Part shown: positions 413-40,565 of the stretch, piece by piece
Position numbering within the stretch: the first letter of the stretch is position 1
Layout of the letters: each line of letters begins with the position of its first letter
Translations under genes and position numbers: made by a program
Origin: Perkinsus chesapeaki
Lineage: Eukaryota; Perkinsozoa; Perkinsida; Perkinsidae
Reading direction: 5' to 3'
Length of the DNA stretch: 41,308 bases
Assembly: GCA_013115145.1 (NCBI GenBank)
Contig: JAAPAO010000233.1
Span: forward strand, 7,964-49,271
The notes under the pieces: generated by a model
Told to the model about the DNA's origin: nothing
Database searches by the model: none
Seen by the model: the letters and a program-made list of their open reading frames with translations, nothing else

Positions 413-3036
413 GGATGGTGGTGGCCAATGAGCTGGTTGTGAAGCGTGCCCACCTCCTGATTCATCGTCTCCGTCATCACAACTCACCAAATCTAGTCGT
501 CACTGCGCACGCTGGTCAAGCCTTTCCGACGTGCTACGATGAAGTTACGGGAAAAAGGATTGAATTCGATGCGGCCCTTTGCGATGTGAGAAAGGGCGTG
601 GGTTCGATTCCTGGTGGAGGCATTTTTAGGCACCGTGCTCGGGAGATGGGACGCTGCGAAAGTCGCCGGACTTGTGGGCGAGGTGGCACCCGAACGCCGG
701 GTTGAGCTGTCACAGACTGCAGCGGTCGATTTTGAAACGCACCGCTGCTTTAGTGAAAGTGGGCGGCGTGATTGTGTAAGTTTTGTGGTCGAGAGGTCTC
801 CGGCAGCTCGATCGAGGAAGGCTATGATCGCCATTCGGTAGCTCTTGCTTTGGGTATACTAGGAAATATACGAAAAGTGGGTTCTGATCTTATCCGGAAG
901 GTTTGCGGGCAAAAAAACTCCGCAGAAAAATGACAGGCCTGGGGATCGAACTTGCGTCCGTGCAACAGAATTTACTGATGATTCTTCGAGCCCCGTATTA
1001 TATATTGTAGAGGAGTTTGGTATTTTATTATTTCGCTATATAGTATAATAAAGCTTCATCATTATCAATAATAAAATTTGAATTATATTTATGGACGTCT
1101 TCGGGTGACAGGGGCGGATTATCGAACTCGTCGTTTTGAAATAGCAACCCGAGGAATATAATCGATCCTGTTCCTCATTTACTTTATTTTTTATTGATCA
1201 CTTGTTAGTTTTTATTTTTTCCCAGCTACTCTACCTGTGCTTTGAACCCTATCGAAGATGAAGCTGTGGTCGGCAGTGTTGTGGCATCATCTGAGGGAGC
1301 TTTGGTACTGAGTCGGTGGAAGGAGGAACCGAAAGGGCTGAAATACGAGAAAGGAGCTACGAATTGGAAAGTTAAAAGTGGTGGAAAATGGTAAGAAACT
1401 TTCGAGGATTATTTGCCTGACATTTTTTACATCTTTTCCCTCGGAATTTCCCCATTTTCTTGTCCCAAAATTCTCACAATTTTTTCTGAGTTTTAGCACT
1501 GTTGGTCGGAGCTCCTCGATATTGGATAATATTGTCTTTTTATTCTGAAGAATCACCAAAAAAGCTCTCCGAACGAAGTCGCCGGCGGTCGCCTTCCCGA
1601 CTCAGCATCACATGACATCTTGGTAGAGTGCTTTTCCGTCAAGTATAGAAAATTTCAGGGCTCATTTTGCCCCCAAGTTGCTCGCGTTGATGAACTACTT
1701 AATGGTAGCAAACCCAACGAATGTTAGTTTTGGGTTCAGTCCAATGTTGATCGATGATGGGGATAATAATTTCTGTCTCAGGTTCACGAGCTTCGAGGAG
1801 GCCCAGGCGGAGCTCGGGGACGGGAAGGATGCCCGATTGGTGAAATCGTCGATGTTCCCGCAAGCTTCTGAGGGCGTCGATCTGTCACAGTGTGTCAGAG
1901 TCTATCCTCATCTACAGGTGAGTTCGATTCCTGGCGAGGGTATTTTACTCGCATTTTTCGGTTCACCAAATTTTTCACGGCAATGGCAGATTTTTTTGAA
2001 AATTTTCCCGAAATTTGTTTTTTTTTAGAATACTGGAGGCTTCTTTATTGCGGTTATAAGGAAGGTGCGGAGAGTTCCTTGGGAGACTATGAGCGATAAT
2101 TTAACAGATGATGAAGATACGTGTGAGGTTGAGAAGAAAGATACTTCTGAGGTTGACAAGAAAGATACTTCTGAGGTTGACAAGAAAGATACTTCTGAGG
2201 TTGAGAAGAAAGATACTTCTGAGGTTGAGAAGAAAGATACTTCTGAGGTTGAGAAGAAGGATACTTCTGAGGTTGAGAAGAAAGATACTTCTGAGGTTGA
2301 GAAGAAGGATACTTCTGAGGTTGAGAAGAAGGATACTTCTGAGGTTGAGAAGAAAGATACTTCTGAGGTTGAGAAGAGAGCATCTTATCGATCGGTATGT
2401 ACAGGCGAACCTGATCGATCTCCGATAAGCAGCGCGCCTTCGAGAGAAGAGAAGCAATCTGACTTCTACGAGTGCCCAGAAGATTTTGCGGCGAAATTGA
2501 AATCTCAATTTGGCATTCCGGAGTCGGAAGTGGACGGTCTACTGTGGTCCAAAAGTCCCGAGCCGACGCCGAGGAAGCTGTGGTTGATGAGTCGATCAGT
2601 TGATCGATTTCTGCGTAGCTATTCTCGGCATGGGTTGAAGGTTGTATCCGCCGGCACACCTGCATTCGATCGGCCCTCGGGGGCTCATAGCGAACCGCGC
2701 GTGCTGATGACAGCGCTGCAGTGGTTAACTATATCGAAAAGGGTGTATGATATCACTCCAAAAAATTTCGCAAAATTGTTGATAACCAAAATTCCAGCCG
2801 AAGCAGTTGGCCTTGGTGAGGCCAAGGAGAGCGCCATCGTGGCTCGGTGTAGGGTGGGCGATGTGACGCTGAGGATGCCTGTCTATCGGGGGAGGCATTT
2901 GGCGGAAGGTTTGGTTTCAGAAGACACTCGACCGGGATTGGCATGGTGTATCTCGAAGGAAATAAATGAAGGTAGGATGGCTAGAGGTGTCAGAAAGTTG
3001 CCTGGAGTAATCGTCATTGAATCGGTCATTTCGTAA
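413..3036 (+). CDS. NSUN2: tRNA (cytosine-5)-methyltransferase, Trm4/NSUN2 family (5'-partial, 5 exons)
   Basis: SAM-dependent enzyme expected to make m5C in tRNA (positions 34 and 48-50 in the family). Exons: 413-585, 630-775, 1226-1390, 1782-1917, 2029-3036; phases agree throughout. Seen in order: GMVVANE segment, motif IV PCSGDGT (catalytic-site Cys), motif VI YSTCALNPIEDEA with the nucleophilic Cys, the W-F-T segment, NTGGFFIAV, and a C-terminal PUA-like region beginning FYECPEDF. Between catalytic and C-terminal parts lie 11 copies of an acidic/basic octapeptide (EKKDTSEV type). Introns are 44, 450, 391 and 111 bp. The N-terminal part with SAM motif I (about 200-230 residues) is missing to the left. 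The motif IV spelling is CDAPCSG rather than the commoner CDVPCSG. Identification is firm; start unresolved. Confidence 0.93.
586..629 (+). repeat. 44-bp Trm4 intron 1 carrying a tRNA T-arm/B-box sequence
   Basis: Intron GTGAGAAAGG...TTTTTAG. Its 3' part (598-629) reads GTGGGTTCGATTCCTGG, then a short G-rich spacer, then ATTTTTAG. GGTTCGATTCC is a canonical Pol III B box (tRNA T-loop). Related sequences occur in intron 4 of this gene and in kinase introns. Confidence 0.75.
924..1130 (-). repeat. Two antisense B-box elements in Trm4 intron 2
   Basis: On the minus strand, 955-924 reads CAAGTTCGATCCCCAGG and runs into TGTCATTTTTCT. Positions 1130-1105 read GAGTTCGATAATCCGCC, then TGTCAC. Both match the T-arm plus T-run element seen elsewhere in the window, but here they are antisense to the host gene, so the element is not simply part of the splice signal. 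Confidence 0.6.
1918..2028 (+). repeat. Trm4 intron 4 beginning with the T-arm element
   Basis: The intron starts GTGAGTTCGATTCCTGG, so the 5' splice site is part of the tRNA T-arm-like sequence. It is followed by a small inverted repeat (CGAGGGTATTTTACTCG) and a T-run, and ends in a long T tract and AG at 2027-2028. Confidence 0.75.
2116..2379 (+). repeat. 24-bp coding tandem repeat (11 octapeptides)
   Basis: Eleven in-frame 24-bp units encode DT(S/C)EV(E/D)K(K/R). Nucleotide identity between units is very high (mostly AAA/AAG and GAG/GAC changes), implying recent expansion by slippage or unequal exchange. It sits exactly between the catalytic domain and the C-terminal domain of the Trm4 gene, where it would form a long charged linker, probably helical. 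Confidence 0.95.
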
Positions 3037-3264
3037 TTTTTGAAATCGACCGGAATTTGCCTCACCAGTAGGTGAACAGTATAGAAGTATAATTCGAAGA
3101 ATAACATCTTCGAAGAATTTGCAGTGGCCGGGCTGAAACGGTGGCGAGGAGGCCTTTTCGAGGAATGGGACAGGCGACACAGAGATGTCTAGCTAGTCTC
3201 AAGAGATTTTGCTCCTCCTAGCAGAATTCACTTACGCAGCGGATTGTGTGCCAGCAACATCGCA

Positions 3265-3501
3265 ATGACTTTTTTGTCAGATATCGATTTCCCCGGTTTG
3301 ACCTTGTCGGCTAACAGTGATATAAAATTGAGTGATAAGGCAGTCGAAGGGGAAGCCTCGGCTGTGAAGAAGGAAAACGTTTCGGACACTTCCAACCTCG
3401 AGAGCTACGACGCCGTTCTGGCCGGTTTGGTGACTTCCTCGGTGGTGATCGCCGTGGCGGGGACAGCGTTGTTTGTGTACAGAACTCTACGCAGGGATTA
3501 A
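3265..3501 (+). CDS. Small tail-anchored membrane protein, unknown
   Basis: A 78-residue reading frame from ATG 3265. The N-terminal half is hydrophilic (K/E/S-rich); the C-terminus has one clear hydrophobic segment (about residues 52-72, AVLAGLVTSSVVIAVAG...) followed by a basic tail YRTLRRD, a layout typical of tail-anchored proteins. A good acceptor-like CTTACGCAG lies just upstream (3230-3238), so an upstream exon or trans-splice site is possible; an alternative acceptor TTTGTCAG lies inside the frame. I do not recognise the family. It sits between Trm4 and TrmO on the same strand. Confidence 0.5.
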   Translation: MTFLSDIDFPGLTLSANSDIKLSDKAVEGEASAVKKENVSDTSNLESYDAVLAGLVTSSVVIAVAGTALFVYRTLRRD

Positions 3502-3546
3502 TAAGGCAAAAGTTTCTACCAGATGGATTCGTTTGAGTTTTCGCTT

Positions 3547-3564
3547 ATCGATCACGTGATCGAT
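3547..3564. repeat. 18-bp perfect palindrome containing an E-box
   Basis: ATCGATCACGTGATCGAT is perfectly self-complementary and centred on CACGTG. It ends 22 bp before the TrmO start codon. An identical copy lies at 20006-20023, with near-perfect copies at 19598-19615 and 19675-19692. Confidence 0.9.
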
Positions 3565-3586
3565 TTGGTACAAGTTCTATCTTGTA

Positions 3587-4717
3587 ATGGCGGAGGCTAC
3601 GATCGAGGAAATACGAGCTGAGCTATTTCGGTGCGCGCAAGAAATTGCCGCGGAGTTCAACTGGCCAGTAGAGGCATTCGTGCCGCTTGTCTCTCATAGT
3701 CGATCGCCTACAGAATCCAATCGTTACTTCTCACCAGCCCTGTTGCGGTATCGGAATTTCCTGGCGCGTGAAAAAACTGGGGCCCTTTTACCATCGCTCG
3801 GTGAGCTTGCGGAACGTGTTGCTGCCTTGTGGAGCATTGATAGCATTTCTTGCGCGCCACATAATAACGGGTATATCACTTTTGAAGATATTACCAAGCC
3901 GAAAGTCACGCCTAAAATGACGGGCGGCGTGCTCGACGAAAAAGTCGACGTCTTGGTGATCGGGGATGTCGTCGAGAGCACGTATCATCATAAGTGGGGG
4001 ACGCCCCGGCAGGGTGGTTTTGCCAAGGGGTCGACAACTTGCATCAAAATGCGCCAAGGCTTCGGTTTGCCGGAAGAGATTAGAACTGGCGATTTCTGCA
4101 TAGTGCTGTGGGCATGTCATTTGAACGAGACGAATCATAATCATCTTAAAGCGAAAGCGCGACCTCCGAAAAACAATGGCGAGAAAGTAGGGGTCTTCGC
4201 GTGCCGGTCTCCGTATAGACCGACTAATATGGGAATGTCGATTTGCCGAGTGGCCGAGATCGTCGCTGGTGGAATGATCGAAATGCATGACTGCGATATG
4301 ATTCTGGGAACACCGATTTTGTCTCTGGAAAAATACACGGCGGTTCGACATCGACCAACAGGGGAAGTGCGAATGCCGAGGTATGTGACAGAATCTGCGG
4401 GACAAGCGATGAAGGTTTGTTTCTCGAACGGCGCGCGCCAGGAAATTAAGAAGTGGCCCGAAGAGATGGAGGGAGTTATTGTTAATACGCTGGAGGAGGA
4501 CCCGCGGTCGATCCACTCCAGAAAGAAGCACAAGAATCCGGTCTATGCAGTTGACATCGGTTGTGAGGGCCGAGGAGCAATGAGAGTTGTTTATCGGTAC
4601 AAAGCTGGTGAACACGAAGGTGAGAGGGATGCAGCAGGGTGGTGCTTTGGGGTGGATGGGACATCGGACCGTGAAGTATATCGTTTCGATTCCGAGTCGT
4701 GTTCTTGGTTCTTATGA
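3587..4717 (+). CDS. TRMO: tRNA (adenine37-N6)-methyltransferase, TrmO/TsaA-like
   Basis: Expected to methylate t6A37 to m6t6A in ANN-decoding tRNAs using SAM. Intact single exon, 376 aa. Residues 1-115 are a helical extension not in bacterial TrmO. The TsaA-like beta-barrel domain then carries IGDVVES, GTPRQ (138-142), the ARPP segment (191-194), VGVFACRSPYRPTNMGMS (201-218, the family signature) and the GTPILSLEKY strand (241-250). A C-terminal region follows. Start: first ATG, just downstream of the E-box palindrome. Same strand as Trm4 and the small membrane protein. The rare intronless gene in this half of the window. Human TRMO and bacterial YaeB have the same signature blocks; assignment is confident. 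Confidence 0.92.
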   Translation: MAEATIEEIRAELFRCAQEIAAEFNWPVEAFVPLVSHSRSPTESNRYFSPALLRYRNFLAREKTGALLPSLGELAERVAALWSIDSISCAPHNNGYITFEDITKPKVTPKMTGGVLDEKVDVLVIGDVVESTYHHKWGTPRQGGFAKGSTTCIKMRQGFGLPEEIRTGDFCIVLWACHLNETNHNHLKAKARPPKNNGEKVGVFACRSPYRPTNMGMSICRVAEIVAGGMIEMHDCDMILGTPILSLEKYTAVRHRPTGEVRMPRYVTESAGQAMKVCFSNGARQEIKKWPEEMEGVIVNTLEEDPRSIHSRKKHKNPVYAVDIGCEGRGAMRVVYRYKAGEHEGERDAAGWCFGVDGTSDREVYRFDSESCSWFL

Positions 4718-4768
4718 TAGTACTCGACGAGTACTACTCGTATTTGAAACTTTACATCGCGACGATTG

Positions 4769-4824
4769 ATATTGAGTGACAATTCGAAAAAATACGAAAT
4801 ATTGTATTTCATTGCGTTGGACTG
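4769..4824 (+). repeat. Dispersed 56-bp repeat, copy 1
   Basis: ATATTGAGTG followed by an A-rich block and TTTCATTGCGT, matching 33151-33206 over about 56 bp with few mismatches and no gap. It lies about 50 bp after the TrmO stop codon, so it could be a shared 3'-UTR sequence or a small mobile-element remnant. Confidence 0.75.
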
Positions 4825-5584
4825 CACAACAACGGGGAACTGTGAAGAGAATCTCAAAGGAGTTTTACATCTTGAAAAATCGCTCGGAATTGTCATCAAA
4901 CTCATAAATACAAGCACGTGATGGCACGAGCTTCAATTTACTCTCTTGTTGGAATTTAGTGGAGTATCTTTGGTTTGTTAATATCTTTGCAAGCTCGGAC
5001 GACTGACTTTCTGAGGAATTAGCCGGTTGCCTGTTTGATTACGATGCAGCTGCACTTTTTAGACTCGATCGAGGTCGTACGGATTGATGAAGTGTCCGAA
5101 GGAGAGGCAGGCCCAGCCCCCCGAACGAAGGCTTGGTTAGACAATCTTACTCAACAGCTGGTCAAAGGCGACTAGGCTTACAGAATTGGTTTACTGATCC
5201 CTGTATATTAAACGTTCCTGTTCCCACTTGTTTACTTTGTATCTTTCAGCAGGGGACCTTGCGTTTAGTGGTCAGACCGTCGAAAACGAAAATTGCGACT
5301 GCTTCGGGCAAAACGAGAACTGGCTGTGATCCCTGTAACATGGCGAATCTGTATGAGAACACTGCGAGATACCAGAAACGCTGCAGCACCTCGAACCGTA
5401 GACGTGTTATTAAAGATATGATTTGTTTGGTCAAAGTCCTATGTGCAACTAAGATCTTGAGCCAAGATATGGCTACGGTAAAGGGCATGCAACGAGCGAT
5501 ACGAATTACCTAAACGCCGATGATAGGCTTCGAAACTAGCCGTTTCACCAAAACCGTCCCAAAGGATACTAGCGCACTGCACAG
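4825..5584 (+). other. Possible 5' exons of the unknown secreted gene
   Basis: An ATG at 5044 opens a 43-codon frame (MQLHFLDSIEVV...), and after an acceptor near 5250 (CTTTCAG) comes a second coding-looking stretch with NCDCFGQNEN. Neither can be joined to the downstream exons in a consistent phase by eye. They may be the N-terminal exons of the gene at 5585-6755. Confidence 0.3.
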
Positions 5585-6755
5585 ACTTTGCCGGATACCA
5601 TTTCCTGCGGGGATTCAACCAATGCTACTAGCAACAGCGATTGGCGACCCCACACGGGATGGGATTCCCTCATTCATGAGACTATCCAAGTCAGTCCCAC
5701 CAATCATGGAAAATCGAGATACGTTGTGTTAACCAGCTTCATGCCACACAAGTTCACAAGTGTTACATGGTGTAACACCTGCGCCACTTAATCAATAATT
5801 GCCAACTCTAAATTAACGAATATATTCAATCCCAATGAACGCGTCGGGTGGTGAAGAATAGTTTTGAGCAGCAGTTGGTTGCCAAATTCAAGATTTTCGA
5901 GCGTTTTCGGATTCCACCTTGGTGATATCGTGAAAGACGAGGCTTTATATTGATTACCTGGAGTACCTAGTGCTCACGGATTGTTACACCGCAAATGACA
6001 ATGACAGTAAAACGTCTGCTGCAATCTATCACTCTGCCGGCGGCACTCATACAAGGTTTAAGGACTTCGGGAAGGTCTCCCGTACAAGTGAGCTCGAAGT
6101 GTCAGCATGACATGGATTAAGCTTGTATCTCAGCCGTTTTACACTTATAAGACTGCAGGAATACGACTCGATACAAATGCCACACGTTGCCAGTTCACCC
6201 GCAAAAGGAATGCCCACTCCGGTTGGTCATGGTTGGAGGTTGAGATTGAGAAGGGCGCACTGCCGCGGACGGTGAAGTTGCAATGTCCTAAGACTGAGGA
6301 GATGCCTTCCTTCTTCATCAAGCTGTGAGCTTCAAGATACGTCTTGCCGTCACTTCCTCTTATTCAGAAACGAACCGCGAACTACGCTCAGGGATCACAT
6401 CGCTGGGCTCTACACACTCAACAAGACTGACATATCTAGTTATATCCAGTATTCGCTGCCGATCGAATCATGGGAGAGCAGCCCATTCGCAGAGGCAAAC
6501 CAGACAGCTTTTTTGGACGAAAAAAGAGTCCTCGACTCCAAAATGGGGGAATTGGGGTATACTGCTAGACCGGAGCAAAAACTCTTACACACATGGGATT
6601 TAGCAGCCCTGGGTGAAAGAGGCAAGAATGTGAAGAAGCAGCTTGAACGAGCATGCAGGGCGTATGGTGATGCTCTGAAGGCTGCGGTCGATACCGTTGA
6701 TGGATTATGCCAGATGTATTACGCTACAATACGTAGTGCTATTGAGATAGACTAG
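5585..6755 (+). CDS. Unknown, probably secreted protein (multi-exon, 5' end unresolved)
   Basis: Not a recognised family. Coding stretches: 5585 to about 5760 (TLPDTISCGDSTNATSN...), about 5950-6087 (TDCYTANDNDS...), 6159-6324 and 6368-6755. The last three join across introns of 71 bp (6088-6158) and 43 bp (6325-6367) with consistent phase. The join between the first two is unresolved. The product has several N-glycosylation sequons (NAT, NKT, NQT) and Cys, suggesting an extracellular protein; the C-terminal 60 residues are charged and probably helical. At first sight this region looks like a frameshifted pseudogene, but the splice sites restore the frame, so I treat it as a live gene. Confidence 0.45.
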
Positions 6756-9230
6756 GTAGCAGTCTCGTGCTCAGAAGATATTATTTGAGATGTTAGGTGT
6801 ATTCATGTGATGATGGTGTTTATCGTTCTCATGTTGTGTATAGTTAAAGTCTGCCTCAAAAGTTTTGAGTCAAAACTCATAAGCGGCGTTCTTGCCAAGA
6901 ACTTCTGAGTCTCAGAATCTGAGAGGCTCCAAGTTGGAGCGCACTCCGACCACGTTGCATTGCGAAATCGACAGTGAGTATCGGCGATGGATTTTCAATG
7001 AGGACGAAGCATATACGCTTCAGGCTTGACCGGCAGGTCCCATCATTCATTTTCGGCATGTAGCCATTGGTTACTGTCAGAGAGCATTTCATCAGTTGAA
7101 GAGGTCGCCAACAGGCAGGAAAGCCTTAAGCTGACGATCTCGGAGATCGGATCTCCTATCTGCTGCCGGCAGACTGCTGGTCTTAATTAATTTTGTATTG
7201 ACTTTCAAACACAAGTACTACTGAAGAAAAATAACGAAGTAGATTGGCGAGATACAAGGGGCCAATGAGAGTTGTTTAACGAGTGTATCCGGACTGCAAT
7301 GAGCATAACTGTGAACAATTGGTTAATAAGAGGGACGAAACTAGCCTAACTCCTGGACAGAATTGCGAGGCGTCGACAAGAGAAGTATAGAATATAATGC
7401 AGTCACTCATTCGGGTAAAATCAGTTTCGGTTAAGACGATCATTTAACATACAGGTCAAACCCGATGGAGACAATGATATCTGAAAAGAGGGAAACCGGG
7501 CCGAAATTTTCGGCTGAGAAACGACGAAATCCGCTATTCCTGGCGAATAGACTGAATTTCGGATTATGAACGAGGGAGAGTCACCTCACAGGAACAATCG
7601 AATAGACTGCTCTCGCTCGTTTGGCAATGGAACGATCACGGTCAAGATATTTCCAAAACTAACCAATCTACCTTAACAAAAGCAACCGCCTTACCCAGCT
7701 TTTCAGCATACACATTCCTCGGTTGCAGTATGGCTTGGCAGAGACCCCTGTAGCCCAGGGACAGTCTGCATCTACTTCGTAGTCAGGGCTAAAAATACAA
7801 CTCTTCCACTTTCTTGCACGAAAGTAGGAAGTCTAAGACAAAGGAAAAACTTCAAACGGGCGCTTGCAGTTTCCTCACCGAGCAAGTCGAAATTTAACCA
7901 TCAGGTGCAATTAGTAACTTGACCGGGCTCAAGATAGAAACATCTCCCCTCGGGCTTGAGATAGCTTTCCGTGTCCGACAATAAGGGCGTGAGCTCTAGA
8001 CTTTGTGTTATATACAACAAAGCGAGTTCCACAGGTATGCACTTTCCAGCTTGGAGGGCTCTAGATGTAGAAACTAGCGGGTTTCTGCCAGCGAGTGAGA
8101 TTATAGTTCTAAAGAAGTCAAGTTACACATCATTCACAACCACAAAGCTTTTACTCAGTCATGAGACCGTCATCACGGCATTGAGCAATAGGAGTGACCC
8201 AAAACAGGAGGATATGCGGAACTAGACGTGAAACTGTGTAAGAGGTCATTCTGACCAATCAAGTGGGATAGAGCCGATCTTGCCGCAATCTTTCTTGCGT
8301 GTCACCAACGTTCTTACTAGTAGTGGCGTCTCTGTGACGCAATTCATAGTGATATGCTAAATGCAATGTATATGGTTTGAGTTCATCTGGGTGGACTGAG
8401 GTTAACTAATATAGTACGTACAACGACCATGGGGATCGCCACTCAGTGGACAGCTCATCCACAATCCTCTTTATCGTGATTTCACATAATAATAGTCGTG
8501 TAGTTAGAGTCGGTGACGCGAGTAACCGCTACTCCAGCGTCAGCGCACACCATAAGCATGCGCACCAAACAAGAAAGCCAGCAAGTTGGACACGGAGGGG
8601 CTAGAGCAGCGGCTGGGTGCCCGAACTTCGAGCCCGATTCAATAATAGGGGGTGTCTGGGCGGTGGCACCGCCGCTATGCAAATTTACCGGTGAATTCCA
8701 AATTCGACACGTTAGCCCCCCTTAGCGGTCGATGCCTTCCCCTCCGTCAGAAGCCTCACGGCCTAGTCCAGAGGTGTGCCGGTAACGGCATTTATGTTAT
8801 TGTCGTGCAACACAACTTCTCTGTGCTGACGTTATTTCTGTCCCCAATTTTTGTGCTGTTTCCCGCGTCATTTGTTTCCCACAATTGTGTGCTAAGATTC
8901 CTAGCGTCTAGCTAGTGGACTCGGTCCATAACTCATAATAAACGTATAAGTTTTCTAAGCTTTCTACGGTATCGACCTCATCACCTACGAACCATTTGTA
9001 TCCTCAGACGGAATACGTTTTTGAGTTCTTATTGCAGTAATCCGTCATAGAGGTTTTGGCAAAGCAGTGAGTCGCGCATTTAGTTCGCACAAAAAGCGAA
9101 ACTGCAAGCGACAAAATTTGGCCCAGTTAGAGAAAAATCGACGGTCGATCAGTACAAACAGTATGAGCTAGTCTTTATCTTAGGTATCACTTCTGGGGAT
9201 TTACACATCTTTTCCTCTTCACGAGTACCC
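6756..9230. other. Intergenic, nothing recognised
   Basis: About 2.5 kb without a frame that I can tie to a known family or chain by consistent splicing. Short open frames at 7971-8225 and 8513-8915 have no domain-like features. The segment must contain the promoter of the carboxypeptidase. Confidence 0.5.
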
Positions 9231-11644
9231 ATGGTATCCAGCTACCATTTCTTACTTGCATTGGAAGGATTATTCGTCCCAGGTGCTCCCAATCAACAAG
9301 ACGCTTTGATAAGAGCACTTGATGTTCCTGAACTCTTCTCAGGTGCGATCGGCGTTGGGGGAGGAGCACTATGTGAAGATTCGGTCGGTAAACAAGTGTT
9401 TGGCTACACCGTTACCTCATCCACCAACAAGTGATATCAGCTACTATTATCGAGTGTTTCGTCGGCGATCAGGTATTTTCACGCTTACATAAATGCCGAC
9501 AAGGTTACACAAAGTACCCCGACATTTGTCTACCTTCCGGGAGGCCCCGGCATTAGTGCACTCGGTGTCACCCTAACAATGAATGGCCCCTGCATTATCG
9601 AAACTGATGACTTCACCCTTTCTCTCAACAAGTATGCTCGACTTCCGAGACAGCCCAAGTCTGATTCCGTCCATCAGGTACTCTTGGACTTCAACGGCGA
9701 ATGGTATTTACATTGATGCGCCTGGGAAGACTGGATTTAGTGTTGGGTCGACAGAAACCACGATCAAGCAATACATCGAAACTTGTATGAAACATCATCC
9801 ATCTTTGCTCGGCAGATAAACTTTTAAATGTACACTCTACAGGTACAAAACCCTACTCGATATTATAAAGCAAAATCCAAAAGTCAAGGACAACTTGCAC
9901 TTGATTGGAGCATCTTTCGACGGTAAAAGTGGTCAGACTGATGACGGTGTCGTGACCACACTCATAAGTGAACTTGCGTATCGTCGCTGGATCGGACAGA
10001 TTCAAATATATCATCTTAGTCTAATATCCTCAGGTTCCACTGCAACTCTTCTTGCTAAGAAGATTGTATCTCTCAAGGCCCAATCTGGGATTAAACTAAA
10101 GTCTTTACTGGTCATTGACGGAGCTATGGGGCTACTAGACATGTACCAGACATATATCAACTGATATTCGAGAGCTAATCATAAGCTGCTCACGTATTCA
10201 GGTACAGGGATGGAGTCGAGATGGCAAAAGACAGGAAGCTTCTTCCAGAGAAAGTGTAAGGGTTGCCTTACACGCGAAATGCAAAATGAGTCGTAGAGTG
10301 TTCTATATAGAATTGCCAAAATGGTCACCGATGGATATACTTGTGCTGAGAAAGTGAAGGCTTGTCAGCCTTCTGCCAGCTCGGAGCCTAATCCACGTAA
10401 GTCTGTTTAAACGTCTACACCAGCGGCAATACGAACCAGTATGCTAAGTTATGGACCTGCTGTTCTTCAGAGGCTTGTCAAGATGCAATGATATTCTGCG
10501 GAGATGCCTTGTTGAACCCACTTGACGCTTCTCATATAAGCCGGTGAGTTTCGATGGGACCGCATTTATGCACTGCGGTGGTCAACGTCAGGTATGATGT
10601 ACGCGTGCCTCCGGGAGCAGAGGCAAGGAATTACAAGCTTATTACTGGAAATGTGATCGTTCAGTGTTTTTCCCATTTTCATTGTTCACTTTAGTCTGAG
10701 ATGCATATGAACGAGAAAAGTATTCAGACTGCAATGGGGGTGAACAAGCCATGGTTCAGCAGCGATAGCCAGGTGGGGACTTTGAAAATTGGAATATTGC
10801 ATCCTAGTGGACACCGAGTGGAGTGGTGACAGGTTGCGTGTGAATAGGTATTCAACGACTTCAGGAAATACGGTGCTTTTGATACGACTAATGTCATTTC
10901 GGAGCTATTGGATAACGGCCTCAAGGTAACAGTTACTCGCGATAGTCAGCCAAAGCGCAGTAGGTAGCCCTAGCTCGCCATAGACTAGTGGGTGTTGGTC
11001 CTGGTAAGAGACGGAGCACCATCGCACTGGCGCTTCTGCCCCTGACTAGAATGCCCCAATGCCGCCTACTACTGTTGAGCAACTGGAAATGCACCCTTTG
11101 ATCGAACTCACTGAATTTTTCACAGTCTGCACAACTCCTACTATGAAGGCCCTCCAAGCACTTTGTCTGAGTATTCATCATCAGGTTACAGTCTTCAATG
11201 GAGACCAGGACTTCGTATGCAACTCTCGTGGTGCTTTGTATTGGATGAGCAGACTAAAAGGAAAGATAGATTATGGTACAGCATTAGCTAAAGCACCGGT
11301 GAAGCCACTTAAGGTATCAATTCAAGTATACATGATGGTTCGGATTATGGAAGTTTCCTCAGTTTAAGCAAGGTGGTCCACTAGGGACAATTAAACAGGC
11401 GACGTATTCTACAGGAGGCTCATTGGCTTTCATTGAGGTATGTGTCGGAATAGGGACTATCCTGCCGCAGGCAAATGACAGCTCCGAAGAATACGAATGG
11501 TCTGTAACCGCTTCAGTTTCTTGTATATTAGGCTTACTACTGTGTGCAAGGCAGACAGTGACTCAGGTTACGGATGGAAGCCATACTCCCATGCTGAACA
11601 AGCCACTTGAGATGCTTCAGGCAATTCAGCAATTCGTTCAGTGA
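9231..11644 (+). CDS. Serine carboxypeptidase, peptidase family S10 (14 exons)
   Basis: Secreted or lysosomal/vacuolar carboxypeptidase. Exons: 9231-9430, 9473-9631, 9678-9767, 9843-9922, 10034-10142, 10202-10255, 10311-10396, 10471-10543, 10592-10652, 10695-10772, 10848-10925, 11185-11313, 11363-11437, 11567-11644; 1350 nt, 449 aa, the usual S10 size. Seen: weak N-terminal hydrophobic segment, LPGGPG oxyanion-hole motif, NGP, YIDAPGKTGFS, catalytic Ser in GASFDG (family GESYAG), catalytic Asp in NGDQDFVCN, catalytic His in DGSHTPM (family GAGH-VP). Introns are 42-259 bp, mostly under 80. Intron 3 works only as GC-AG (9768-9842); the nearby GT donor at 9785 breaks the frame. Substrate residues around Ser and His differ from yeast CPY, so specificity may differ. 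Confidence 0.88.
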
Positions 11645-13329
11645 ACATGACGAATAACGTCGGACAAACGATTTTGATCGAGAGTCTTGCTGGTGAGCTG
11701 TGTAACTACTATCTCTAATGGATAGTACCTCCATGACGGAGGCTCCGTCTTTTATTCGTCAATACCTGTCATAGTCATATCCCTCATTATCATTTGGGCG
11801 ACCGCGATTGGCAGCTATGCTGTTCCCGTGGGAAGTATGATCGGCTTTGACCCAAAACAGAATAAGGGACTTTTTGTTGACCTCCCATGCTAATTGCGAG
11901 TTGCGTTACTAAACAGTTAGTATCTGATCTACTCAAGGGTCTTCTGCACACGGCGATCGAGAGAGCTTGCAGGATTATCATGTGTCACGTGAGACGTGAT
12001 GATAAGCATGTAGCTATCGAGAAGTTGAATTGAATCTAGAATAAATTAGGTCGAATATTGACATATGTTCAGGTCTGAAATGTTGATTTACAATCGAAAC
12101 ACGCATTCGTCAAAGCCCGCATGCGCTCGAGTCCCGGTGGCGGGAAATCCTGATGGATTTAATCCACCACGACAGTGTGCGCGCTTTCTTGTCAACTTGT
12201 GTCGGCGATCGACCGTCAACATTACCCGCAGTGTGTTAAATACATATCTTCGCCCTACTTTAGGCGAAATTCTTTCACATTGGGGCCCTCAAAGAGCGCA
12301 TGTCTAGTAAGAATTTACTACGATGCCGTCCTTGCCTGGCGGACGGTATTCCTCGAACCTTGTGAGATGAATCTCTTGAATTTGTGTATTTCTGGACGTA
12401 CTCCAACTAAGCCCAGCTCACGATAGAAACCATTCCATGCGAGAAAGGAAATATTAGATAAAATTCCGGATGCTACGATTGGGATGATTTTTTTTGCACC
12501 AAGTTGCAATCGGGAACGTACCTGAGCGAATGTGACTGCATCTTCCACCAAGTTGACAGGGTGGAAAAGGTGGAATTCTATTTTCTCGAAAACGATAGAC
12601 TTTTTTCCGTCGGCATCTTCAATTGTATCCACGCTTCATATTAATTTATATGCAGCTTCATTTATCCTGGACACTAACATTCAAACCGTTAGGTGATCTT
12701 GTTTTTTCAGCTTCACGTCTACGTTCTCGAGACAAAAGACAATATTGCCAAATTATAAGATATTGTCTAATATCATGACCGTCTCGCTACCCGTCCCAAC
12801 AACTGTTCGGGCGTGCGAGGAATCTCCGCGAATGCTCTAAATATATCTTGTCTTGATGCACACTTAGGATGGCACTAAAATATTCCCGTCATAAACCTTA
12901 TATCCGAGCAAATATAACTGCGGGGCTGTGGTGTCTAAAAACGGTGAATTGAAAATTTTTGCATTTTTTTCAAAACAATTTTAATTTTTCTTCGAAGTAA
13001 ATCTTGTTACGTTAGGCATCTTAGTGTGCTCGAGAAAAGAATAAGATAGACTGCCTCTTGACCAGGAGACGAGTAACGGCTCAGTAATTTTCAAACACAA
13101 AGCTTGATTAACGAGCCCTCCTCCTCCGACGTTCACGCAGCACCGGAACGAATGCAAGTTTCATTTGTTAACGAGAAAGAAAATTTCAAGGAAATTCCAC
13201 AAAATTTTCCTTGTATTGAAATTTTCCGAGGGAATATTAGACTAATTTTTACGGCTCGGCAGAGGACGGCCTACAAATAATCCAAGACTGGTTCAATGTG
13301 ACAAACAAAACTCATTTTCACTAGCAGAA
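11645..13329. other. Coding-like segments of uncertain strand
   Basis: Two stretches look coding but conflict. On +, 12175-12426 and about 12504-12624 (LQSGTYLSECDCIFHQ... VEFYFLEND) read well and could be exons of a small gene ending near 12758. On -, 12632-12318 is also open (VDTIEDADGKKSIVFEK...). I cannot decide which is real; the + reading has better splice signals (GT at 12625, TTTTTTCAG at 12703-12710). 12760-13329 shows nothing. Confidence 0.3.
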
Positions 13330-16300
13330 TTAAGATACGCGATCGATTATCTTAAGTCCCGGTGCCGGTGATTGGGACACTTTTGTAAACCTCGCTGCCC
13401 AATTATTAGAGTCGAAGTAAATCTCGTCGACGCGGATTCCTGGAACCTTGAAAGATAAACCAACAGTGAAGAGGTGCCCACTCGACACTGCCCAGTGACT
13501 CATATTAGTCCCAGACCGAATGACTTTCGTTTTTCCTTTTGCTCGAGTAACAACATGCTTCCAATAGATGTCCCATTGCATCAGCTAGAGAACCAAACTT
13601 CTGTGCGGGTAAAAGACGACGACTGTTCGTGAGCTTCGAAAATCGACCCGGCTTTTTCGCGACTGACGCGCCGTGAAAATGCGCTAAAATGTTTTACCTT
13701 TTTTCAGTATTGAAGAAATTTTCACATCCTCGTCTTCGATATGAAGGGCGCGGGAAAGCGCAGGGAATTTCCCAAAAATTTCCCAAAAATTTTCTTCCCT
13801 CAACAAGCGAACATACTGAAATTTTACGGTCCTGCAAATATGGGAACTGCCGAAATTTCCCCGCAAAACAGTTTTCAAGTTACCTTGTCGAATAATCGTC
13901 GGAACTCCTCCTCAGTGAAGACGTGATAGTAGCGGTGATACGTTACCAATTCCGGGTTAGACGTAGCGCCCACCGTCGAGGCGTATTCTGAAAAATACTA
14001 TCTCAACAAAAAATCGCCAAATTTTTACGCCAGAAGCAAAATTTTCCGCAATTCCAGGAGCAAAAAGGCATTCCGCAACGTACGTATAACAGCAACATTT
14101 GAAGGAAACTGAAACTGTGCGAGGCAGATGGCGCACATAGTAAAGTGGATTATTCGACCCAGGAGTCCTATAGCGGCGGGAATCTGGCGGCAAATACTAA
14201 CTAAATACGTCGAGCAATTTCCCAATAACGAGTCGGGAAAATATTTCTTTTTTTGCACTTCTTGTCCGTAACTATTTTTTTATTTTCCCTATTCGCGAGA
14301 ATGACATGGTTCAACATTGGACTCAACTTTCGACTTGCGAATAACAAACATACTTTCAGCCTTCTTGCTTGTCTCATATCGTTTCTGAAGATGCCAAGGA
14401 ACCAACACATCCTGTGTCTCAAATTTTCGGGCGCCAGTCGAGCCTTGCACCTAAACCAATTGTCTAGGTCAGAGAGTCGCTTAGGGAAATCAGACGTCGA
14501 GAGAATTTCATTTTTTCGGCAGGTATATCGTGGCGCGTGACTCTTACTTCCGAATACCTACCCTGTCTTCTTCCGTCCCGACTATCGGATAGCCATGGAG
14601 GACCATTAGGCGTTAAAAGTGACAATACATGTTATCTTTCGGTTGTGCCAATCAAGCAGTGAGATTCATCACTGACTTTTTGCGAGGATAATTCGGAGCT
14701 AATTGAGGTAACTGCTGACTGACTTTAGATTGCACGCACTCCTCCGGCGCTAACTGGATCGTTCGCTTGGACTGATGCATGATTCCTCCACATCTCCAGG
14801 AACACTTCCCCTCGCAAGACCAGATGACTCCTACCTGTTCCATCGCCCAGGCATACACCAATCCTTGCCCGCCGATACGGAGCAGACGAGCCATATGAAA
14901 TAGACACTCCAGTCTACCAGATTCCTACCAGAGGAAAAATATTGCAGAAAAAATTGTTGAGCACGGATATCTCAATCTTAAAGTCCGTAACTGTTAAATA
15001 CTTTTGAGTGAAAATTATCCAAAGGTCCAGATTTGTCCTGGAAGAAACATCCCAACCCCTCGTCAACGATTTGCTCGTCTTGCTCGCACACATTGTTTCT
15101 TCTGCGCTTTTTGCAAAGGAAAGTAGGAATATTTCAACTCAAAAAATCATAGAAATTTCGAAAAGAAATTGGGATATTTTTCCCTTCTCGCACGAGCTAA
15201 ATATACGAGAAATTTTTCCCAGAAAAATTTTTCCCAGAAAAATTTCCCGGAAAACACCGAAAAGTTTCCGGAAAATTTTTCCTTCCTACTGTGGGAATGT
15301 GATGAATTACTGCAATCGAAATTGCACCATCAGCTACACCCGGCCGAAGGGCATTAGAGACATCCCTACTGCAATCCGATACCTAAAGCAGAGGCGTAAT
15401 TTCGCGGCGCGTGAGAAAATATGTTACGAAAGTGTCGGAGCCTGTTCTTTGAGATGCAATCTCGCAGAATACCGGACTGCGATCGGTTCCGAGAGTCCAC
15501 AAACTTGACATTGTCATTTGACCCAGTAAATCTGAAAATGTGAAAATAATAAAATTAAACATATAAATATGCAAAATTACAACAAGAAAGATTCCGAAAA
15601 ATTCACAAAATTTCCCGAAAAATCCACGAAATTTCCCGATTAAAGTAAAAAAATTATAGAATATAAACTGTGTACCTAAAAGATATATAATACAAATAAT
15701 AATATATATCCCAGCTGCCTCCTATGAGGGTGGAGTCCAGCAACGTAACGGCGATCTCACCATCTCTCACTTCAACCTTCTGCTGGTTCATTGCAATCTC
15801 TTCGCTACTTGACGAACCTGTCGGAGCCACTGCCACATCGGTGGGTCTGAAAAATCCAACATCTTCTTGGTTTTCCTGTAAGCATTCATGTTGCGCGAAA
15901 AAACACTGCGACGTGGCAAAAACAGTCTCAAATCCATGATCGATCGACTTTAGCGAAGACCCATGAAAACAAATGAGTATGATTTTCATTGAATCATAAT
16001 CATTATTTTCATCTGCAATTAAAAATAAATCATTTTTACCTCTAGTATTCCAACAATAAAAAAATCTTCCAAAAAGGTTCTTAAATTATTTTAATAAATT
16101 AGGTTGTACGATCCACATATCGGTAAGATGTTGCATCGTTGCTGCGCAGGTTCATATTTTCTAAAAATCAAAATCGTCTCTTTCAGTGATATAGTTGTTG
16201 AAGTTACCGCACTTAAACAAAGTAATAGGAACGAATTACGCTATAAGTTACTGGAATCCCTTCTCCAGAATAATAAAATATCCAACTTGCTCGAGCATTC

Positions 16301-17012
16301 CTGGAATTTCGATGCTTGCATTATTGCCACTTAACTTCCTATATCTACTCCTACTAAAAATTTTGCTGGCCTCATAAAAGTTGTGCACAGCGTAATGGGG
16401 TATTCGTCTCTGCTGTTCAAAAATCGCCAAAATTTTCCGGAAAATCGGGAAAAATAAAAAAAAATCGCCAGAAGTATCTTACTTTTTCCGTTCGGCTAAA
16501 TATTTTCCATTTCCACAGCCAACATCAACAACGATACTTCCAACGGGGAAATCAGATACGAATTGCCACACCTTAGGCCATCGTTTATATCTGAGTTGAA
16601 AAATATCTTTTCAGCGGAGCGAAGCGTTTCATGTTTCACATTTTCTTACCGGGTATGGGAAAAATGGTGCGCAATTTGGTCGTAGACTTTGAACACTTGC
16701 TTATCACAATCAACCTCCTGGGAATCTACAGGAATCGACCTTTTATCGCTCGGCGCCGTTTTAACCTGAAAATATCTTCTATCGCACTGCGAAGAATCTC
16801 ACAAATAACAAGTAATTAATTCCGAAAATGTGATTCGTAGGTCAAGTCCCATTGGGCCTGGCCCAATCATGGTATCCAATATTCTCGCGCGCCATAAAAT
16901 TACGACCGCGTCGCCACGAAATTATTTCCTACGGTAGGAATCCTACCTGTGGTTTCTGGCGTTCCTTTCTTCCGAGTTTTTTACGCTTGCCTTCTTTCGG
17001 CATTTCCGTCAT
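13330..17012 (-). CDS. TRM9: Trm9/ALKBH8-type tRNA wobble-uridine methyltransferase (10 exons)
   Basis: Predicted SAM enzyme that completes mcm5U at U34, normally with Trm112. Exons in transcript order: 17012-16947, 16765-16650, 16590-16483, 15846-15761, 15531-15428, 15382-15290, 14924-14835, 14450-14354, 13987-13884, 13446-13330; 981 nt, 326 aa. Seen: basic N-terminus, FKVYDQIAHHFSHTRYKRWP, motif I VVDVGCGNGKYLA, LGTDRSPVFCEIASQR, ISIAVIHHIPT, ARLLRIGGQGLVYAWAMEQ, ETQDVLVPWHLQ, TYHRYYHVF and a C-terminal FDSNNWA block, all in ALKBH8/Trm9 order. There is no AlkB or RRM domain, so it is Trm9-like. About 45 low-complexity residues (TGSSSSEE...) separate motif I from LGTDRS. Introns range from 45 bp to 636 bp. 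Confidence 0.92.
16591..16649 (-). repeat. 59-bp Trm9 intron 2 carrying a shared 30-nt element
   Basis: Plus-strand positions 16614-16643 (GCGGAGCGAAGCGTTTCATG onward) match the reverse complement of 18776-18805 at 29 of 30 positions. That second copy fills most of a 39-bp kinase intron. Relative to the two transcripts the element is in opposite orientations. Confidence 0.85.
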
Positions 17013-17184
17013 TTGATTGGTAGAAAAATACCCCCACTGGGATTCGAACCCTCGCCCTCTCGATTACCAAAATTATTGCACTCGAAGCAACACCGACGAA
17101 ATCTGGTAAATTCTTAACACCATTAATTGAACATTAAATATGCATTAAAAATGACCTCGCCAGGGTTCGAACCTGTGCCGGTTT
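17013..17184 (-). repeat. Two B-box elements between the kinase and Trm9 genes
   Basis: On the minus strand, 17056-17024 reads GAGGGTTCGAATCCCAG then GTGGGGGTATTTTTC; 17180-17143 reads ACAGGTTCGAACCCTGG then CGAGGTCATTTTTAA. Both repeat the T-arm plus T-run layout. They lie between the kinase stop (17185) and the Trm9 start (17012), so unlike the others they are outside predicted coding transcripts, unless in the UTRs. Confidence 0.7.
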
Positions 17185-20086
17185 TCACCCTACAGGTATC
17201 GCTTCTATTCGATCGATAAGTTGATTCCAAAGCATCGTATCTTTCTGGCATAAATCTGGACTCGAGTCTTCCATAGATTCCGGGTATCTAAATCTCAGAA
17301 TTAGAAAAAAAAATTCGAAAAAATCCTGAAAATTTTCCGACACGGAAAGTGAATCCGTGTAGCTGAGCGATAGTCTTGTGTGTTCTGCCAAAAATGTTTT
17401 AATGCCAACAATTTTTGAAAATTATTCACAAACGTCAGCCACTTGATTTATGTGCATCCGTGCAAAGAGGATCCATCTGGCAACTAACTCGAGGGGCTAT
17501 TTCGTAATTTTTGAAATTTCAACGGAAAAGCCATACAGAAATTTACAGCGCGTCAATTCGAATCAATTCGTTGTTACGAGAACTTCACGGAGTGTCTTCT
17601 TGCCATCCTGTGCCAAAGGCTTGCAACTTTGTGAATAATCTCACGCATGAAATTTTTTTGTCATGATCGATCACAGGAACACTGTGATTTAACCATACCA
17701 ATCAATTATACTTTCACCATTTCCGGAATTTTTTTCGGGAAAATTTCTGAAATTTTCATTTCTCTTACTCGTCAAACACTCCGGTGAAATATCTCCGCCC
17801 AGGCACATCGTCCTTCCTAAAAATCCACATGTAAAAAGCGCACGCCCACATGATCGATTACGGCCCACTGCGCCCCATCTTCACGGTACGTTGGACACTT
17901 TTTCGACGGAAATTAGGGACCTGAATCCATTTCATGACAATATTGCGGCAAATGGGACTTTTTCCGTATCTTCCTTTTATGACACTCGGATTCGACTGGT
18001 TGGTATTCTCTGCGCAAAAGTGAAAAAATTGAGCCTGAACTCGCATTTTTGAAAATCACCGAATTCCGGTCTCTAGATGACGCGTTCTGTCATTTTTTAA
18101 ATTTTCTAGATAGATTTTTAAAAAAATCACACCAAAAATTTCTCGGAATTTTTCTCACGCGCCCCAAAAAACTTACAAAGGGAACCGGTATCTGTTTGTT
18201 AAGCAGAAGATTCCACTCGATGCCCTTGAAAAATTTATGATCCTTCAACTGACAAGAAGAGAACATCAAAAACCGCGCGCCACGAAATTCTCACCTTGGC
18301 AAGAAGCCCTGCTATGCGATTTTCCGGATTGAAAACGAGAAGCGTTTTAACCAGATCTTTCGTAACCCGATCCATTCCCTTCCGTTTGCCCCACCTAAAT
18401 CGAAATCGATCAATCGGGCGCGCGCTTTTTACATACCGAATATTAACAGCCATTATAGCTTGGTGAATGTTAAAATGATCGCTAGCATCTTTGGACCAGT
18501 CTGATAAAAGTGATTTAAAAATGACGGGTGCCGGGATCGAACCCACAACCTTTGGCTTACCCCACGGACATCTCAACATTATTAATTCGAATACTAATAC
18601 TCCAAGTGCCCACCAATCGGGTTCGAAACTGAAGGGGAGAAAATTTCAGGAAAAATTCCAGAAAAGTAATTTTTCCGAAAAAAATTTAGAAAATTTCCAA
18701 CTTACCTGTACGGCTTGTTCAAAAGCATCTCCGGCGCCTGATAGATAAGTGTGCCGCAATTTGTCCGAGTTCCTGAAATGTGAATCATGAAACGCTTCGC
18801 TCCGCCTTTACGGAAATTATCTTGTGGCTCCAGCCGTTTCGCCATACCAAAATCGACCAGTTTTATGTGGCCCTAAAAATGCGGTAAAATGCCGCCGCCG
18901 AGGATCGAACCCACGAGATCGTCAAGCATGCAGTTCTCCGGTTTAATGTCTCGATAGACGGTATGACGATTATGAAGATACTCCAAAGTCAGAACCAGCT
19001 CCCCAATCCAGTGCTGCGCAACTCGAGGAGTTACTCCACCTATAGGAAAAAAATATTTTTCACTGAAATTTTTGCCGGAAAGATTCGGTCTTTTTGTGGA
19101 AAAATTTTCGAAGAAATATTACAATAGCTTATTGGAGTTTGTTTCAGGAGAGTTATTATTTTAAGAGCTCATTTTAGAAACATTGCCAAAAATCGTTATT
19201 AAAAAAATGAAAATTTTTGGGAAATTTCCCGAAAAAAGTCCCAGAAAGAAATAATCTTCTCACAGGACAACCAGTCTGCCGGAAGTCAGCAGGACAGAGA
19301 AATTTACCGATTTTTCCGACACCCGAAGGTCCCGAGTTCGATCCCTCCCACCCGTAATTGGATTTCGCTCCAACTTGCTGCCTCTGCTGTGAATCACTTT
19401 ATAAAGCTCTCCGCCTGAAAAAATTTCGGAAAATTTTCCAAAAATTTTCCGGAAAATCTCTGACCTGTGCAAAATTCCATCAAAACGAAGACTCGTTTAG
19501 GGTCGTGGAAAATCTTCAAGATTCCGACGATAAACGGAAACTCAATTTGACCGAGAATCTCAACTTCATGCTTGATTGCTTGGGCCTGAAACAAATATCG
19601 ATCGCGTGATCGATTACGGAAAATTCCACAATTCTGGACAAAGAAAATCCTTTCACCTTGCATTTGAAGCTGATATCGATCACCTGATCGATTTGCATAC
19701 GAGATGGCCCACAAACCATCTCTCATCGGGAAAAATTTTCCGGAAAAAACAAAAAAAAGGTTTTGCCGAAAAAACTTACGGCGTTGATAATCGACCCTCG
19801 ATATTTTTTCGCTACTTTCACTTTATTGAGAATCTTCAACGCACAAGGAACCTAAAATATGAAATGCACGTTCAACCTCAAGATACCCCTTACAATGCTG
19901 AGCTTCTGCAGATCCTCAATTGGAATCGGGTCAGACCCGGCCGAATCTGGCTCTTGCTGCTTCAGATAACACAATCGTACTCGACCGTATCTTAGGTTGG
20001 AGCAAATCGATCACGTGATCGATTAAACAATAGCGTTACCCTCCCATCCCAACCGTTTGAAAGACATCCAAATCTGCCAATGACAT
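17185..20086 (-). CDS. AGC-family Ser/Thr protein kinase, PKA/PKG-like (15 exons)
   Basis: Exons in transcript order: 20086-20040, 19990-19894, 19851-19780, 19585-19465, 19414-19352, 19039-18915, 18872-18812, 18772-18706, 18628-18561, 18500-18437, 18394-18295, 18248-18177, 17920-17862, 17816-17769, 17287-17185; 1167 nt, 388 aa. Seen: Gly-loop GMGGYGRV, catalytic Lys in CALKILNK, HEVEIL, GGELYKVI, YRDIKPEN, DFG in KLVDFGMAK, APE in YQAPEM, DWWALGVLVFEL, LLVFNPENRI, and the AGC C-tail HKFF...PVPFVPNF and FDEYPESMED. This is the whole catalytic core plus tail. No cyclic-nucleotide domain is visible; the ATG at 20086 is tentative because the frame stays open upstream. GTLIYQAPEM replaces the usual GTPEYLAPEI. 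Six or more introns are under 50 bp. Confidence 0.9.
18501..18560 (-). repeat. 60-bp kinase intron with B-box element
   Basis: GTAAGCCAAAGG, then GTGGGTTCGATCCCGGC, then CGTCATTTTTAA and a TATCAG acceptor. Here the T-arm element lies 15 bases inside the intron rather than at the donor. Confidence 0.75.
18773..18811 (-). repeat. 39-bp in-frame kinase intron made of the shared 30-nt element
   Basis: GTAAAGGCGG...CACATTTCAG. Removing it gives ...DNFRTRTNCGTLIYQAPE; keeping it adds 13 codons without a stop. Thirty of its 39 bases (18776-18805) match 16614-16643 in a Trm9 intron with one mismatch. It falls in the activation segment, between DFG and APE. Confidence 0.8.
18873..18914 (-). repeat. 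42-bp kinase intron consisting of the T-arm element
   Basis: The whole intron is GTGGGTTCGATCCTCGG, an inverted repeat (GCGGCATTTTACCGC) and ATTTTTAG. The B box begins 3 bases after the donor, and the T-run plus AG is the acceptor. It is the most compact example of the T-arm element acting as a complete intron, between the HRD and DFG exons. Confidence 0.85.
19040..19351 (-). repeat. 312-bp kinase intron with antisense B box at its donor
   Basis: The intron begins GTGGGAGGGATCGAACTCGG, that is, the donor lies in an antisense T-arm-like sequence (CGAGTTCGATCCCTCCCAC on +, 19334-19352). The rest contains AATTTTCC/GGAAAATT-type inverted motifs common in introns of this segment. Confidence 0.7.
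19598..20023. repeat. Three copies of the 18-bp E-box palindrome in kinase introns
   Basis: 20006-20023 is the perfect ATCGATCACGTGATCGAT (intron 1). 19598-19615 (ATCGATCGCGTGATCGAT) and 19675-19692 (ATCGATCACCTGATCGAT) each differ by one base and lie in intron 3. Confidence 0.85.
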
Positions 20087-40200: not shown

Positions 40201-40565
40201 GTAAATCGTTGTAAAATGACAGAATAATCTACTCCAGTATATGCTATTACTTACATCAGGAGATCAATCATGCCCTGAAGAGCTCCAGCACTTTGATGCT
40301 CGTAAAGTCCGAGCTTGAAATGCATACCCATTACAGCGAAATCGCTACCACTGTGGCTCAGCTCCTACAAAGAAAGACAAGAAAATAGTCAACTGTCAAT
40401 TCAGCTCTTTGGTAAAGCATCTCCTTTATGATCATAAGGTCGCTAGTTCAATCCCGGCATGCAGCTTCAGAAAAACCATCCAATATTACAATGTCAAAAG
40501 GGCATTGGCCGTCCTGCTGTGGCTCAAAATAACGGAAAATGGCTTCTGGATTGCGGAAGACATCC
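37287..40565 (-). CDS. prpD: 2-methylcitrate dehydratase-like protein, MmgE/PrpD family (partial)
   Basis: Mitochondrial propionate/methylcitrate-cycle enzyme in other eukaryotes. Exons in transcript order: 40565-40490 (DVFRNPEAIFRYFE), 40364-40255 (AVMGMHFKLGLYEHQSAGAL), 38356-38252, 38206-38122 (FSHGGPEYDKRYPDGIPTSV), 37843-37742 (MVMYPSGHARNTTADL), 37546-37437, 37349-37287 with the stop. Splice sites and phases agree except between 40255 and 38356: phase 2 meets phase 0, and the roughly 50 residues that relatives have there (YEPA...DHSM region) are not found. That 1.9-kb gap is AT-rich and holds unrelated sequence. Exons 5' of 40565 should lie at 40.6-41.3 kb or beyond the window but were not resolved. 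Either an exon was missed or the gene is disrupted. Confidence 0.8.
39118..39200 (+). repeat. tRNA-like element with intact B box
   Basis: GAGGCCTAGGCAGA (A-box-like) is followed by a possible anticodon-arm region and GAGCGGGTTCGATCCCTGG at 39170-39188, then GTAGGGTCATA. GGTTCGATCCC is a perfect B box. Stems are too poor for a working tRNA; best read as a tRNA-derived repeat, antisense to the PrpD-like gene. Confidence 0.55.
39448..39768 (+). CDS. Orphan 106-aa protein, unknown
   Basis: ATG-initiated frame of 106 codons in otherwise stop-rich AT-rich DNA. The N-terminus is Ser/Gln/Asn-rich (SSYHSSINSISQQS); the remainder has a folded-protein look (TLSCRWVTLGRITDN... VDVLYLRRIGHELRV). No family recognised. 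It lies antisense within the gap of the PrpD-like gene, so it may belong to an inserted element. Confidence 0.45.
   Translation: MTTSSYHSSINSISQQSTNNEDHTVIGTLSCRWVTLGRITDNTKGRLISEMTEIPKELDPGDSRYNVDVLYLRRIGHELRVLPDSTPIAQLEIQREYFLFLPRNKN
40401..40465 (+). repeat. Full-length tRNA-like (SINE-type) element in a PrpD intron
   Basis: CAGCTCTTTGGTAAAGC matches a tRNA D-arm/A box, CCTTTATGATCATAAGG sits at the anticodon arm, and CTAGTTCAATCCCGG matches a T-arm/B box at the right spacing. The acceptor ends do not pair, so it is probably a tRNA-derived repeat rather than a gene. It is antisense to the PrpD-like gene, inside the 40489-40365 intron. Confidence 0.65.

Follow-up and report, generated by a model that had tools for sequence, protein, structure and literature searches.

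A dispersed tRNA-like 3′ element in Perkinsus chesapeaki as a probable source of spliceosomal introns

Copies of the element in the window

The window, a stretch of 41,308 nucleotides of Perkinsus chesapeaki DNA on contig C150 of the assembly, contains a Trm4 (NSUN2-like) gene and an AGC kinase gene, in which five introns consist of, begin with, or contain a short element carrying the tRNA T-arm/B-box motif GGTTCGANYCC. Joining the exons around 586–629, 1918–2028, 18914–18873, 18560–18501, and 19351–19040 restores an open, conserved-looking protein. Copies were scored with a 36-position weight matrix, which finds 10 places above score 9 in the window (four of them members of the matrix training set) vs one in the reversed control. 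In the Trm4 gene, on the forward strand, the 44-nt intron at 586..629 is the element itself (GTGAG ... core 601–611 ... ATTTTTAG); the exon join reads ..FDAALCDAPCSGDGTLRK.., and the Pfam match to Methyltr_RsmB-F (residues 18–126) runs across the junction at residue 77. The 111-nt intron at 1918..2028 has the element at its 5′ end, with the T-stem GTGAG as the donor (matrix score 28.8 at 1921), and its join reads ..RVYPHLQNTGGFFIAVIRK... An antisense copy at 924..955 (minus strand, 35.8 at 952), listed in the preliminary description, is confirmed in its orientation; it appears to lie within a long Trm4 intron, recognized by reading the sequence, and not to form an intron of its own. Another listed copy, at 1105–1130, deviates from the core sequence in the part that separates GA from CC, scores below 9, and is not retained. 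The same gene contains a coding minisatellite at 2120–2390 with repeated KKDTSEVE, and its reading frame has a match to the NSUN2 Pre-PUA domain that falls slightly short of the cut-off. Positions 1–140 of the window form a tandem repeat with a unit of about 34 bases (CTATCTTTACGCACTCGGAAGAATTTCGAATCG...).

The kinase gene lies on the minus strand. Its 42-nt intron at 18873..18914 is the element (GTGGGTTCGA ... ATTTTTAG); the join reads DIKPENCMLDDLGHIKLVDFGMAKR, the junction lies in the protein alignment without a gap, and an in-frame TAG would be read if the intron were left in. The 60-nt intron at 18501..18560 contains the element in sense orientation (38.8), and its join reads ..FELIMLRCPWDWSKDASDHFNIHQ... 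An automatically picked 46-nt intron with another donor at this site was dropped; the 60-nt intron fits the kinase frame. The third, 312-nt intron at 19040..19351 has an antisense copy (19334–19352) at its donor end (21.1 on the plus strand at 19335), and its join reads GELYKVIHSRGSKLERNPITGGVTPRVAQHW. The preliminary description had proposed that the Trm4 intron at 1918 and the 42-nt kinase intron start inside the element and that the element makes up the whole of the latter, and the joins agree with both statements. It had also ascribed such introns to three genes, of which the Trm4/NSUN2-like gene and the AGC kinase gene stand; the supposed third is represented by two copies on the minus strand, at 17143..17180 (38.0) and 17024..17056 (41.0), located upstream of the next gene, whose frame looks methyltransferase-like by reading.

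A further copy and a partial likeness are found on the plus strand. The one at 39170..39195 has an exact core (29.0), is apparently intergenic, and has ATATAA at the position of the T-run. The tRNA-like stretch with a T-arm half at 40401..40465 (15.8) had been taken for a near full-length version of the element; it has neither an ARAGORN call nor an Rfam match at E ≤ 1, and is not recognizable as a tRNA; no near full-length ancestor was identified.

Introns and flanks at 16500–20000 and elsewhere in the window also carry TTTCCGGAAA and ATCGATCA motifs, possibly another intron-borne repeat; the first occurs four times in the window vs none in 200 kb of contig C1, the second 18 vs 11 times. Two adjoining related transporter genes (nucleotide-sugar/EamA type) are located at 25726–29062. 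The GC content is 44.0% in the window vs 49.7% in C1, and the over-represented words differ, which could be regional or reflect a mixed assembly.

Abundance in the genome

The genome searched was the 35.4-Mb assembly in 884 contigs, and all results come from this one assembly. GGTTCGANYCC occurs exactly five times in the window vs 0.08 expected (none of 100 shuffles reaches five) and 1,735 times (862 + 873) in the genome vs 148 (83 + 65) for the reversed pattern. A strict form, consisting of the core, ten bases (tRNA positions 63–72), discriminator A73, and then the TTTT T-run, so that the YATTTT run stands at tRNA-exact spacing, was found 375 times vs 0 in the reversed control. These counts reject a chance origin of the motif and bear out the earlier claims that the element is dispersed in both orientations and that a T-run follows the motif. 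The 375 strict copies include a few real tRNAs, since two among the first 60 surrounding regions that were retrieved contain tRNAs. The variant with A57 occurs 37 times vs 0 in the control; tRNA matches account for at least three of the 37. In 200 kb of contig C1, which was unselected, the weight matrix finds 18 places above score 12, among them three real tRNAs and three training-set members, whereas the reversed control gives 0. The C1 density and the strict count suggest a genome total of roughly 1,500 to 2,700 copies.

The assembly also carries the Perkinsus/dinoflagellate spliced leader. Its core GTAGCCATNTTGGCTCAAG occurs 21 times vs 0 for the reversed control, with C at the N position in 20 of the 21, matching the P. 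marinus leader in the available part of PMC9399869, which marks the organism as Perkinsus-like.

Extent, tRNA likeness, and subfamilies

An alignment of 71 strict copies, two of which are real tRNAs, shows information confined to the stretch between about −8 and +27 relative to GGTTCGA; a faint excess of purines continues to about −15, and no conserved sequence was found outside the unit. The unit, about 36–42 nt, corresponds to tRNA positions 44–73 plus the T-run. The letters conserved in it agree with a tRNA 3′ part (AGGTC, G-Y-R-GG-TTCGA-NYCC, Y72, A73, and the T-run); the core and YATTTT served to select the copies, the remaining letters did not. The variable-loop and B-box letters agree with the tRNAs of the genome, and the T-run directly follows position 73, an arrangement that some real tRNA genes also have.

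Both likenesses speak for one alternative, namely that many tRNA 3′ parts were captured independently, by break repair or reverse transcription, that some of them are now introns, and that they form no family. The P. marinus scaffolds, with more than 500 copies of five tRNA types according to the available text of PMC3706591, point the same way, as does the similarity of elements to the nearest of 27 tRNAs, slightly above the column-shuffled value (21.12 of 30 vs 20.82 ± 0.09). Element-to-element similarity, however, exceeds its shuffled value by more (24.41 of 30 vs 23.51 ± 0.11), the 27 tRNAs being a partial set. Moreover, positions 49 and 65 are paired in all 27 distinct tRNAs fetched but in only 21 of 69 element copies, below the mean of 29.9 in shuffles. 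Independent capture is therefore considered unlikely.

Further comparisons with tRNA were negative in the same 69 copies. No upstream partner for the acceptor strand exceeds the control, and the best A-box scores upstream of the B box equal those of shuffles, whereas 16 real tRNAs score 8–9 of 9. Because the A box and the acceptor 5′ strand are absent and 49–65 is mostly unpaired, the copies are not intact tRNA tails, and intact tRNA 3′ halves are ruled out as a general source; a cloverleaf with paired acceptor and T-stem was not found. The description of the element as tRNA-derived is thus narrowed to a tRNA-like element, limited to positions of about 44–73 with the T-run, that does not copy a functional tRNA tail.

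Within 97 listed copies of the 375, variants are linked, e.g., at positions 65–66, 65–68, and 65–72. A neighbor within two of 12 variable positions was found for 63 of the 97, with 24.2 expected after column shuffling, and two types stand out, G65 (roughly CCYGGYRAGGGY) and C65 (roughly CCCRCACCYGTC). The linkage shows subfamilies and therefore copying of the element; the pattern looks like copying from a few sources rather than independent conservation of letters. Among the 97 listed copies, full agreement over the 12 variable positions was seen in a single pair, whose two members differ in their upstream flanks. There are thus few recent copies among those listed, which counts against the introner reading. 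Two loci (L056 and L073) have in common a longer similar stretch that extends to both sides of the core, indicating a longer repeat family that contains the T-arm.

Introns elsewhere in the genome

Homology supports junctions at element introns in eight proteins, and not every one of the 375 strict copies is an intron. A conserved protein is restored by removal of sense element introns in Trm4, the kinase, a flippase, topoisomerase I, PS synthase, and a HATPase, and of antisense ones in poly(A) polymerase and NAD kinase. Thirty joins were scanned for domains, chosen by hand (21 of 41 listed proteins, eight further joins, and the hand-joined kinase). The domain match continues through the junction in seven, i.e., Trm4, topoisomerase I, poly(A) polymerase, NAD kinase, PS synthase, the HATPase, and the kinase of the window; 20 of the 30 spliced candidates gave no Pfam family at E ≤ 0.01. 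The flippase junction is gap-free against PDB chains, and poly(A) polymerase also aligns without a gap at the junction. Syf1 and TIP49, among the 10 candidates with a family, were not accepted as junction-spanning, their domain matches merely touching the junction. A MAPK-like antisense case (L124) was rejected too; its weak Pfam match begins at the junction, where the alignment has a gap.

An earlier coding test with fixed 120-nt flanks, for which 27 long reading frames had served to train the coding score, was positive in 2 of 71 copies in sense and 1 of 71 in antisense orientation. We attribute this low yield to short exons, and the test was therefore replaced by a search for splice pairs. 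A sense pair above score 8 is present at 23 of 88 copies vs 3.5% of 1,056 control windows, and a strong donor lies just upstream in 31 of 88 sense sites vs 8–11 at four control offsets. Antisense pairs were found at 10, 5, 5, 2, and 0 of the 88 at thresholds 4, 6, 8, 10, and 12, where the controls give 5.9, 3.5, 1.6, 0.9, and 0.5%. Since this bulk signal is only weakly above control, without excess at threshold 12, the antisense case rests on individual homology. Two antisense candidate introns are 30 nt long. In the classes defined by the splice test, G65 is found in 21 of 28 sense copies and C65 in 11 of 12 antisense copies (Fisher p = 2.4e-4); C65 may splice better in antisense, or orientation may be part of how each subfamily spreads.

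It was also considered whether the element is a conserved functional site that arose repeatedly, such as a TFIIIC-type binding site or a splicing signal, e.g., a branch-point region with TCGA. Preservation is best in the B box and T-run, although both were used to select the copies, and the TCGA center, identical on both strands, could serve as a branch-point region either way. However, the 10-nt spacing to YATTTT is also present in copies antisense to genes, which a splicing signal does not explain, and the variants are linked in subfamilies. A repeatedly arisen functional site is thus very improbable. The T-run is followed by AG, AC, AA, or AT in 16, 14, 17, and 10 of the 88 copies; AG being no commoner than AA or AC, this speaks against strong selection for a T-run acceptor.

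The second issue is whether the copies created introns or entered existing ones, some of which were later reduced to the element alone, so that the element dispersed without making introns. The latter is favored by copies in a longer intron and apparently between genes (924–955, 17024–17180, and 39170). However, introns of 42 and 44 nt and the 30-nt candidates leave scarcely any room for older sequence, and the site of the 42-nt kinase intron is uninterrupted, with at most 15 extra bases, in 33 of the 34 further places in the genome that match this segment of the protein; the remaining match ends at residue 33, ahead of a different intron. In seven of the 34, the matched frame is broken by a stop, and some may therefore be pseudogenes or contain introns. 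The empty site in the 33 other matches favors intron gain, short of proof, and entry into pre-existing introns appears quite improbable.

Comparison with introners and other mobile elements

Introner elements (in Micromonas, Aureococcus, fungi, Amoebophrya, and others) resemble the Perkinsus case in being short multi-copy introns, spread over many genes, that nearly fill the space between the splice sites. Here, similar copies are introns of unrelated genes at unrelated sites in the eight proteins, and the element reaches close to both splice sites in the 42- and 44-nt introns, but not in longer ones, e.g., 1918–2028. Some described introner families show cut-and-paste signatures (3–9 bp target-site duplications and/or terminal inverted repeats) and others do not, according to the available part of PMC9860276, and those of Amoebophrya form non-canonical introns and bear inverted as well as direct repeats (PMC7789003, available part). 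In contrast, the Perkinsus element has a tRNA-like B box and T-run, forms GT-AG introns, and shows no target-site duplication; in 69 copies, the longest strings shared by the flanks equal the shuffled expectation, and conserved ends are absent. The data thus do not support placing the element with introners of the DNA-transposon type. Neither tRNA nor SINE occurs as a word in the main text of PMC9860276 as available, and the accessible parts of PMC9860276, PMC7789003 (with one of its two uses of tRNA), PMC3443670, and PMC3488318 do not mention a tRNA-like intron. A literature search, with most subscription papers outside its reach, found no report of tRNA-like introns in Perkinsus.

The element shares with tRNA-derived SINEs the B box, a terminator-like T-run, and dispersed copies with subfamilies. 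It differs in lacking an A box and target-site duplications, in its length of about 36–45 nt, and in that no separate tail was found. An intron of rice catalase is said to derive from a SINE. In the host group, in the involvement of tRNA genes, and in the many tRNA copies, there is also a likeness to the Dada DNA transposons of Perkinsus tRNA genes; these are kilobase-sized and inserted in tRNA genes, the TAGCTC of the A box being the site used by three P. marinus families (PMC3706591, available text). The element corresponds to the tRNA-like 3′ part only, and no transposon is seen at it; Dada is a different matter.

A tRNA-like introner and its implications

Abundance, extent, both orientations, subfamilies, and frame-restoring joins in conserved proteins were obtained by computation. 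Taken together, it is probable that a dispersed family of tRNA-like 3′ elements of about 36–45 nt exists in this genome and that copies in coding regions become spliceosomal introns, i.e., act as introners. We read this as a process of a known kind in which the element is the unusual part. The unit would consist of the variable loop AGGTC, the T-arm/B box GGTTCGANYCC, ten variable bases, a discriminator A, and a T-run. In sense orientation, the donor would be a GT at the T-arm or within 32 nt before the core; the acceptor would be an AG that directly follows the T-run, which resembles a Pol III terminator, or one close by. In antisense orientation, the complement of the T-run (GTAAAAT...) could be the 5′ splice site, as is often so among the candidates, with the 3′ splice site at an AG located at the complementary T-arm or beyond it (e.g., ...TCGAACCAG). 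We infer that insertion created the introns, which would agree with introns made of the element and with splice sites inside or beside it; this part of the preliminary description, an element able to create introns, is retained, its full tRNA origin is not. The B box and T-run may have been retained because transcripts of the copies serve as templates, and reverse transcriptase would then be what moves the copies; the genome has 56 reverse transcriptase matches, some in frames of more than 1,000 codons.

It is tentatively proposed, as a possibility somewhat short of even, that the element is a minimal mobile RNA gene, a B box and terminator in less than 50 nt, which is retroposed and uses its own Pol III signals for splicing as well. 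The terminator would provide the polypyrimidine tract and acceptor, its complement the donor, and an insertion either way could therefore be spliced at once.

The source of new spliceosomal introns is a long-standing question, and mass intron gains have been attributed in large part to non-autonomous transposons that behave as introners, as stated in the available part of PMC9860276. If the proposal is true, a tRNA-like source in which transcription signals are also splice signals would be a different route to introns. In a number of genes, the element itself appears to be the intron, in one direction or the other, which suggests that new introns have an unusual origin here.
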